The translations under genes were made by a program, and so were the position numbers. From Bacteroidota bacterium (GTDB lineage Bacteria > Bacteroidota > Ignavibacteria > UBA10030 > SZUA-254): a DNA stretch of 64,000 bases. The stretch is taken from contig JAGVIE010000015.1 of NCBI GenBank assembly GCA_020056225.1, forward strand, positions 1 through 64,000, in the 5' to 3' direction. The notes under the pieces are model-generated. The model did no database searches. It was not told the DNA's origin and saw only the letters and a list, made by a program, of their open reading frames with translations. Shown one piece after another: positions 961-33,840 of the stretch; position 1 is the stretch's first letter, and each line of letters opens with the position of its first letter.

Positions 961-964
961 CCAG

Positions 965-1037
965 TGGACAGGGGCGGAATTGAACCGCCGACACACGGCT
1001 TTTCAGGCCGTTGCTCTACCAACTGAGCTACCTGTCC
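965..1037 (-). tRNA. tRNA-Phe (GAA)
   Basis: A complete cloverleaf is visible on the minus strand: acceptor GGACAGG/CCTGTCC, D-arm GCTC..GAGC, anticodon stem ACGGC/GCCGT with loop CTGAAAA (anticodon GAA), and T-arm GGCGG-TTCAATT-CCGCC. The discriminator is A, and CCA is not encoded. The first 22-24 nt are repeated upstream at 1146-1169 and, in shorter form, at 1281-1297. Confidence 0.95.
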
Positions 1038-1072
1038 ATATTATATTACTTTCTTTTATATTGTTGTTGCTT

Positions 1073-1167
1073 CCGCCTGCACCTCGTTTCGGCGGATTCT
1101 GAAAATTACTTCCACTCGCTTATTCGCTCGTTGGTAATTTTCGAACTACCAACTGAGCTACCTGTCC
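1073..1167 (-). repeat. tRNA-fragment / double-hairpin module A
   Basis: Read on the minus strand: 22 nt identical to the 5' end of the neighbouring tRNA-Phe (1146-1167: acceptor strand and most of the D-arm), then TTC, then hairpin I with arms 1134-1142/1101-1109 (GAAAATTAC with GTAATTTTC), the linker AGAAT, and hairpin II (1091-1095/1073-1077, CCGCC with GGCGG). Module B has the same order with different stem sequences, which argues for a maintained structure rather than chance. The function is unknown. Confidence 0.6.
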
Positions 1168-1188
1168 ATGCAACATTTATGTATCAAT

Positions 1189-1297
1189 CCAGCTAATCTT
1201 GTGTTCAAACTGGTGAAGCTGGATTCTGAATTTGACTTATAACTTAGCATCACTTCGTTCGATAAGTTATGTCAAATTCGAACTGAGCTACTTGTCC
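1189..1297 (-). repeat. tRNA-fragment / double-hairpin module B
   Basis: Same architecture as module A. A 17-nt piece of the tRNA-Phe 5' end with one mismatch (1281-1297) comes first. Hairpin I follows with arms 1263-1279/1228-1246, about 17 paired bases with a 2-nt bulge. Then come the linker AGAAT and hairpin II (1217-1222/1189-1194, CCAGCT with AGCTGG). Only the motifs GGATTCTGAA (plus strand) and TTCGAACT..GAGCTAC are shared with module A; the stems differ. Confidence 0.6.
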
Positions 1298-33396: not shown

Positions 33397-33840
33397 TTAG
33401 TTATTTTCTTTTATCAATGTCCACCCATATTTCTCCATAAACTCATTTACTTCTTGCACAAAAGTCTTCTTAGAATGATGTTCTTCCTGTTGATAAATGT
33501 ACTCCCTCACTTCTGGCAGATGACTTTCACTGACACTGACTGCCCAATAATCGTCCTGCCAAATAAATTTACTCTCAATGATTTTGTTCTGATTTATCCA
33601 AAATGATGATTCTCCCTTTATGAGTTGTGCTGCTTTACTGATGGTTTGATCTTTATTGAGTGAGATTAAACAGTGTGCATGATCTTGATAGCCATTTATA
33701 CAATCCAGCCAAATACCCTTTTCTTCTGCATTTAGTTTGATGTGTTGAAATACTTTTTTACGAATTTCTTTTGAATCAAGAAATGGCTCTCTATTCTTTG
33801 TAGAAAATACTAAATGAACCCAAACCCTTACCCAGCTCAT
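33397..33840 (-). mobile_element. RAYT / IS200-like Y1 transposase gene
   Basis: 147 residues. The Y1_Tnp fold is clear: N-terminal VRVWVHLVFSTKNREP, the HUH metal motif in QDHAHCLISL, SKAAQLIKGESSFWIN, IWQDDYWAVSVSES, and the catalytic tyrosine in EYIYQQEEHHSKKTF. This spacing is that of REP-associated tyrosine transposases rather than full IS605 elements; no tnpB is present. A cluster of palindromes begins ~35 nt upstream of its start and a further palindrome lies ~110 nt past its stop. It probably excises and moves single-stranded REP/BIME units. The gene is intact. Confidence 0.88.

Follow-up and report, generated by a model that had tools for sequence, protein, structure and literature searches.

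The window, which is the whole 64,000 nt stretch of DNA analysed here, contains an intact tRNA-Phe gene preceded by two interrupted copies of its own 5′ end. On the minus strand, a methylase gene is followed by tRNA-Phe positions 1-15 (one mismatch), a hairpin element, 20 nt, tRNA-Phe positions 1-22, a second hairpin element, 34 nt and then the intact tRNA-Phe gene (Table 1). The elements at this locus are 74-95 nt in length. A preliminary description had noted two tandem modules upstream of tRNA-Phe, and they are found on the minus strand at the place that it gave. The copies of the tRNA 5′ end, put there at 17-22 nt, are likewise present, and are in fact 22 and 15 nt long. When the window was scanned against Rfam, only its two tRNAs matched above the gathering score, and the hairpin modules matched no family.

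Table 1. Features of the tRNA-Phe locus. Coordinates are positions in the 64,000 nt window; the modules lie on the minus strand.
Feature	Positions	Strand	Remarks
Intact tRNA-Phe (GAA)	964..1037	-	Sole tRNA-Phe among the 44 tRNA genes found in the genome
Unit 1, right side	1038..1071	-	AGCAAC (tRNA-Phe 23-28 resumed) plus 28 nt spacer, reaching the intact tRNA
Unit 1, hairpin II	1072..1096	-	TCCGCC..GGCGGA
Unit 1, hairpin I	1097..1145	-	TTCGAAAATTAC..GTAATTTTC-A-GAA
Unit 1, dead 5′ piece	1146..1167	-	tRNA-Phe positions 1-22, identical to the intact gene
Unit 2, right side	1168..1187	-	TTGATAC (eroded; tRNA = TTGGTAG) plus spacer
Unit 2, hairpin II	1188..1223	-	TCCAGCT..AGCTGGA
Unit 2, hairpin I	1224..1282	-	TTCGAATTTGACATAACTTA..TAAGTTATaaGTCAAATTC-A-GAA
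Unit 2, dead 5′ piece	1283..1297	-	tRNA-Phe positions 1-15, one mismatch

Because the tRNA sequence resumes past the hairpins, the elements are inserts in tRNA copies and not the sequel to a fragment. Both are precise inserts within dead tRNA-Phe copies upstream of the single intact gene, and the target bases seem to have been neither lost nor doubled.

The element consists of two hairpins that abut directly, with no gap between them. Hairpin I starts with YYC and ends with GRA, and these bases pair with each other (TTC with GAA, TCC with GGA). A bulged A or C precedes GRA, and most copies carry a two-base bulge higher up on the same strand. Hairpin II, which in most copies is TCCCGC..GCGGGA, follows immediately. 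The sequence AGAAT had been read as a linker, and is better parsed as the bulged A, the GAA that pairs with the initial TTC of hairpin I, and the T that opens hairpin II. The window modules fold with an MFE z-score of -4.2, and none of 200 shuffles was as stable.

The stems of the two units were already thought to pair despite their differing sequences, and the family as a whole bears this out: 97% of 362 pair cells are paired (76% in shuffles), with 70 two-sided changes and two one-sided changes. In RNA helices under selection, G-U intermediates are usually frequent. Because G-U pairs are nearly absent here (two in the family alignment), the data suggest that the structure kept by selection is that of DNA hairpins, and selection on RNA structure was rejected as the sole cause. 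Thus, where the preliminary description had proposed a selected RNA or DNA structure, the DNA half of the proposal is favoured over the RNA half.

A DNA search revealed one further copy in the same genome, at tRNA-Glu, and several in relatives. With a covariance model built from 20 copies, the genome yielded 13 matches at E<=0.1, of which 10 are full-length at E<=1e-5 and one more is partial; the full-length copies abut a tRNA gene or tRNA fragment or lie within about 130 nt of one. Among 40 relatives, 26 have copies by the same model at E<=0.01, and a class-wide search at a stricter limit identified copies in 21 of 119 genomes. Matches in named genomes come from uncultured Bacteroidota. As the preliminary description had envisaged for such a search, copies in relatives lie beside many other tRNA genes and carry the fragment of that particular tRNA. 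It is nearly certain that the element family and its link to tRNA genes are real.

At one locus (L130; G033:C4:92700-94500), a 136-bp unit of tRNA-Val 1-15, element and spacer occurs three times in perfect tandem before an intact tRNA-Val. In three genomes (G142, G097 and G137; L223-L231 and L235), palindromic repeats bounded by CTAG occur in near-identical copies with a core that resembles hairpins I and II, and these were probably mobile recently. The core is related, but the terminal inverted repeats mark the CTAG-bounded repeats (G142, G097) as a different element.

In 70 of 86 distinct copies, the left flank matches tRNA sequence that ends precisely at the element, and a few further copies show a tRNA match by a weaker joint criterion only. 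Of the 70 copies, 39 are internal to a tRNA sequence and the other 31 lie at a tRNA end, where 28 adjoin the 3′ end of a gene or 3′ piece and three are antisense at the 5′ end; the tRNAs involved are of many amino-acid types. Internal sense sites fall at positions 10/11, 15, 22/23 and 36, the first three of which recur in different tRNAs, while internal antisense sites are mostly in the anticodon and T arms. The tRNA resumes for at least 3 nt in 29 of the 39 internal copies (chance about 1/64 each, although any binomial p is optimistic because that match helped to choose the position), and only one copy resumes for more than 9 nt. Insertion follows AG or AC in 58 of the 86 copies.

When loci are viewed in the orientation of the element, a consistent polarity is evident: a long tRNA piece, sense or antisense, is followed by the element, by about 3-9 nt of resumed tRNA and usually by an intact copy of the same tRNA. 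The intact tRNA and the piece are oriented alike, even where the piece is antisense (L052, L107, L116). This polarity belongs to the element and not to the tRNA. The earlier suggestion of a tRNA-linked mobile repeat, or a remnant of an element with tRNA genes as its insertion sites, is thus supported, except for its proposal that the element simply carries the tRNA 5′ end. Instead, the element is inserted inside a tRNA copy, in sense or antisense and at several positions, or often abuts an intact tRNA at its 3′ end.

A few copies lie elsewhere, including the starts of Ser/Thr-kinase genes (L058, L151, L173, L182). At these loci the kinase gene restarts about 15-20 nt past the element, and upstream of it are one or several broken 5′ starts that each end in a palindrome. 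In two of them (L151 and L173), unrelated palindromes also end broken kinase starts; the phenomenon is therefore wider than this element.

Comparison of orthologous tRNA-Phe loci provides a view of the site with and without the module. In three relatives (G013, G007 and G008) the module is absent, and tRNA-Phe lies roughly 25-55 nt beyond the same methylase gene. In another (G001), a tRNA-Phe 5′ piece lies at about the same distance from the methylase gene as the tRNA does elsewhere, and thus the dead piece occupies the former tRNA-Phe position. The sites are therefore empty in three genomes and filled in G000 and G001, the pattern by which mobility of double-hairpin elements would be recognized. 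An insertion that destroyed the sole tRNA-Phe gene would probably be lethal, and with one such gene among 44 tRNAs, duplication must precede or accompany insertion. In the loci inspected, no match to the spacer that precedes the intact tRNA is present ahead of the dead piece, apart from whole-unit repeats. Simple tandem duplication of the tRNA and its leader therefore fails to explain the arrangement at these loci and was rejected as its sole source.

There is no GIY-YIG nuclease gene in the window, and such genes share other loci with the element. At a tRNA-Ala locus (L076), a small GIY-YIG reading frame lies between two elements. A search of 40 relatives with PF01541 found up to 18 genes per genome, many beside tRNA genes and elements. 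Element and PF01541 counts over the 40 genomes correlate with a Spearman coefficient of 0.67 (uncorrected for phylogeny or genome size), and a nuclease gene is present within 600 nt for only 14 of 93 distinct elements in the sequence examined.

The nuclease genes themselves are lodged in tRNA genes in arrangements much like that of the window. In one locus (L259), a 53-nt leader and tRNA-Ser 1-35 are followed by a nuclease gene, an identical leader with intact tRNA-Ser and, later, tRNA-Ser 37-91. Two loci (L247 and L284) have the order Arg 1-22, palindrome, anticodon-arm region, nuclease gene and intact Arg; another (L246) has intact Val, nuclease gene, Val 13-26, palindrome and Val 45-74. A tRNA-Pro locus (L282) consists of Pro 1-24 with element and spacer, a longer Pro copy, a nuclease gene, a second set of Pro 1-24 with element and spacer, an intact Pro and a 3′ piece that carries a double hairpin in its T-loop. 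This locus is a module of the window type beside a nuclease gene. At eight loci (L258, L264, L278, L281, L283, L284, L286 and L288), the nuclease frame enters the intact downstream tRNA for 10-24 nt and has its stop codon there. Elsewhere, eight GIY-YIG genes form a tandem array with a period of about 365 nt (G183:C34:6982-9778). The genome of the window encodes GIY-YIG proteins of the tRNA-lodged type too, at C45:54777-55022 and C60:105439-105681. In the genome of the window itself (L271; C45:53800-56400), an intact tRNA-Val with acceptor stem GGGTGCT/AGCACCC lies downstream of a dead copy with acceptor stem GGACGCT/AGCGTCC and a hairpin in place of its anticodon arm, as if the working tRNA-Val had been replaced.

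The tRNA-lodged proteins, of about 80-110 aa, form their own sequence group (HNxGK..STK). An intact tRNA lies within 400 nt for 37 of 45 members of this group and for one of 27 other GIY-YIG proteins, a comparison in which some loci had been fetched because of their tRNAs or elements. We therefore also consider the 30 best-scoring GIY-YIG loci phylum-wide (L290-L319), which are the best matches to a query from the tRNA-lodged group and were fetched blind to tRNAs. An intact tRNA lies within 500 nt in 23 of the 30, on the same strand in all 23, and 21 of these 23 loci contain partial copies of the neighbouring tRNA.

Across 20 proteins, residues Y5, Y16, G18, R26, H30 and E62 do not vary, and a structure model (pLDDT 94.5) is closest to UPF0213, then to SLX1 and I-TevI. 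By these conserved catalytic residues and the predicted fold, the tRNA-lodged genes encode GIY-YIG proteins, and their location in or beside a presumed target gene is that of free-standing homing endonucleases. NCBIfam and PHROG gave weak matches only, to intron or homing endonucleases. Phage relatives (18 records) are all below 60% identity and were rejected as close kin. No published description of tRNA-lodged GIY-YIG genes in bacteria was found in the literature searched.

The nearest solved structures by both sequence and fold are UPF0213/URI and SLX1 proteins (PDB 1zg2, 7cq2, 6sei), of which SLX1 cuts branched DNA; the tRNA-lodged family is separate from them in its sequence signature and its location. 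Small URI-type GIY-YIG nucleases of Neisseria, termed Ssn, are reportedly specific for single strands, with a cognate site that is repeated in the genome. The element's TCCCG..CGGGA hairpins look similar to that repeated site, which we take as a lead only. Double-hairpin elements (DHE) are also said to occur in the mitochondria of Allomyces. Like these and other mitochondrial elements, fungal or otherwise, the present element has two side-by-side hairpins, is repeated at many sites in the genome and is probably mobile, and can be classed as a double-hairpin element. In contrast to them, it is bacterial, strongly prefers tRNA genes and is linked to a nuclease family, and its hairpin I has a conserved YYC..GRA base and bulges on one side only.

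A further parallel is SegB of phages T4 and T6, a free-standing GIY-YIG homing endonuclease of the tRNA cluster that has a T-loop-like motif, RAWTSGAAC (PMC13096335, PMC2988022). The T6 enzyme cleaves inside tRNA genes, and tandem amplification of tRNA segments requires it (PMC13096335); it is a working precedent for the proposed nuclease-driven tRNA rearrangement. The Bacteroidota genes share with SegB the GIY-YIG catalytic domain and a position beside tRNA genes. They differ in being chromosomal, in encoding the short proteins described above, in lying in or against tRNA genes that are split and accompanied by an intact copy, and in the palindromes of their dead tRNA copies, and their cleavage activity is putative.

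Several features of the element also recall REP sequences and their RAYT transposases, which are associated with GTAG/CGTC repeats (PMC3733652). A REP- or IS200/IS605-like origin would mean that a Y1 (HUH) transposase recognizes bulged single-stranded hairpins and inserts them into single-stranded DNA without target duplication, with tRNA genes favoured for their hairpins or for the right trinucleotide, and with the right part of the tRNA lost later. Such an origin would fit a short bulged palindrome that inserts precisely and without target duplication, usually after AG or AC, with bulges conserved on one strand and with the Watson-Crick-only covariation typical of DNA hairpins. Moreover, the genome has 11 Y1 transposases, many with their own kind of hairpin in the flanks; one of these genes (IS200/RAYT-like) is at 33487-33828 of the window, on the minus strand. 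However, the element bounds none of the 11 Y1 loci, where the hairpins are of other kinds, and these resident Y1/RAYT transposases were rejected as its movers. There is also no GTAG or CGTC tag at the hairpin foot common to all copies. GTAG occurs only before position-10 insertions and unit 1, where it is supplied by the tRNA itself, and other insertions follow CTCAG, GTAGC, CTAC or CCAC. A transposase of this type would leave unexplained why 70 of 86 copies are at tRNA sequence in both orientations, and why an intact copy follows. We consider this origin unlikely.

It is somewhat harder to credit that the hairpins are a selected tRNA-expression element acting as terminators, insulators or processing signals, despite the 31 copies that abut a tRNA end and one copy (L002) that is followed by a terminator-like T-run. 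Conservation also speaks for such a role: the 110 nt tRNA-Phe units of G000 and G001 share 93% identity, against 77% for the 351 nt upstream, which are mostly coding, and a tRNA-Ala unit of constant anatomy is present in four genera, its stem changes leaving pairing intact. Yet the orthologous tRNA-Phe loci of G007, G013 and G008 lack the module, internal copies kill their host tRNA copy, and G-U pairs are almost absent, unlike in RNA under structural selection. Scars of islands or phages that attach at tRNA genes by an integrase are very improbable. At attachment sites, an intact tRNA is typically accompanied by tRNA pieces in direct repeat, but a spacing of about 110-140 nt leaves no room for an island, the insertion points fall at many tRNA positions in both orientations, and such scars would not be expected to let the tRNA resume precisely past the insert. 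In the window, the tRNA repeats enclose no island with an integrase: the gap from an element to the following tRNA copy is only 34 nt in one unit and 20 nt in the other. Finally, although tandem tRNA duplications are common, chance partial duplications with unrelated hairpins are scarcely credible given the family-wide homology, the covariation and the anatomy that recurs in many tRNA types, and are refuted by the covariance-model copies in relatives.

A nuclease-driven origin is more likely than any single one of these alternatives. On the sequence comparisons presented here, the chances are about even that the modules are passengers or scars of nuclease-driven rearrangement of tRNA genes. 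GIY-YIG nucleases would cut tRNA genes, and repair would be templated by an interrupted copy and primed by conserved tRNA sequence (e.g. GTAGCTCAG). Such repair would copy the insert, either the nuclease gene or a hairpin element, into the broken gene and leave a truncated copy beside an intact one, which would be retained as the tRNA is essential. The hairpin elements may be non-autonomous passengers, break fillers, or inserts that spoil nuclease sites in dead copies, and the window would represent such a locus that has no nuclease gene today. Repair through conserved tRNA sequence would explain both the use of the same positions in different tRNAs and the hits on repeated gene families, because homology-directed copying predicts recurrent positions such as sense 10/11, 15 and 22/23. 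This model covers the recurrent positions, and not the origin of the spacer or the steady resumed length of 3-9 nt.

More broadly, and more tentatively, Bacteroidota may host widespread self-restoring homing elements, in which minimal GIY-YIG nucleases target tRNA genes, split them around the anticodon loop and in other arms, are accompanied by an intact copy of the tRNA as they travel, and by their activity seed double-hairpin palindromes into dead copies; the window modules would be relics of such elements. Genes for tRNAs are essential and are classic landing sites of mobile DNA. If this proposal is true, these loci would show how selfish nucleases can live in essential genes, with the dead copies and their hairpins as a readable record. 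They would also offer a handle on the movement of short palindromic repeats that have no obvious transposase, and on the role of small stand-alone GIY-YIG proteins in bacteria.
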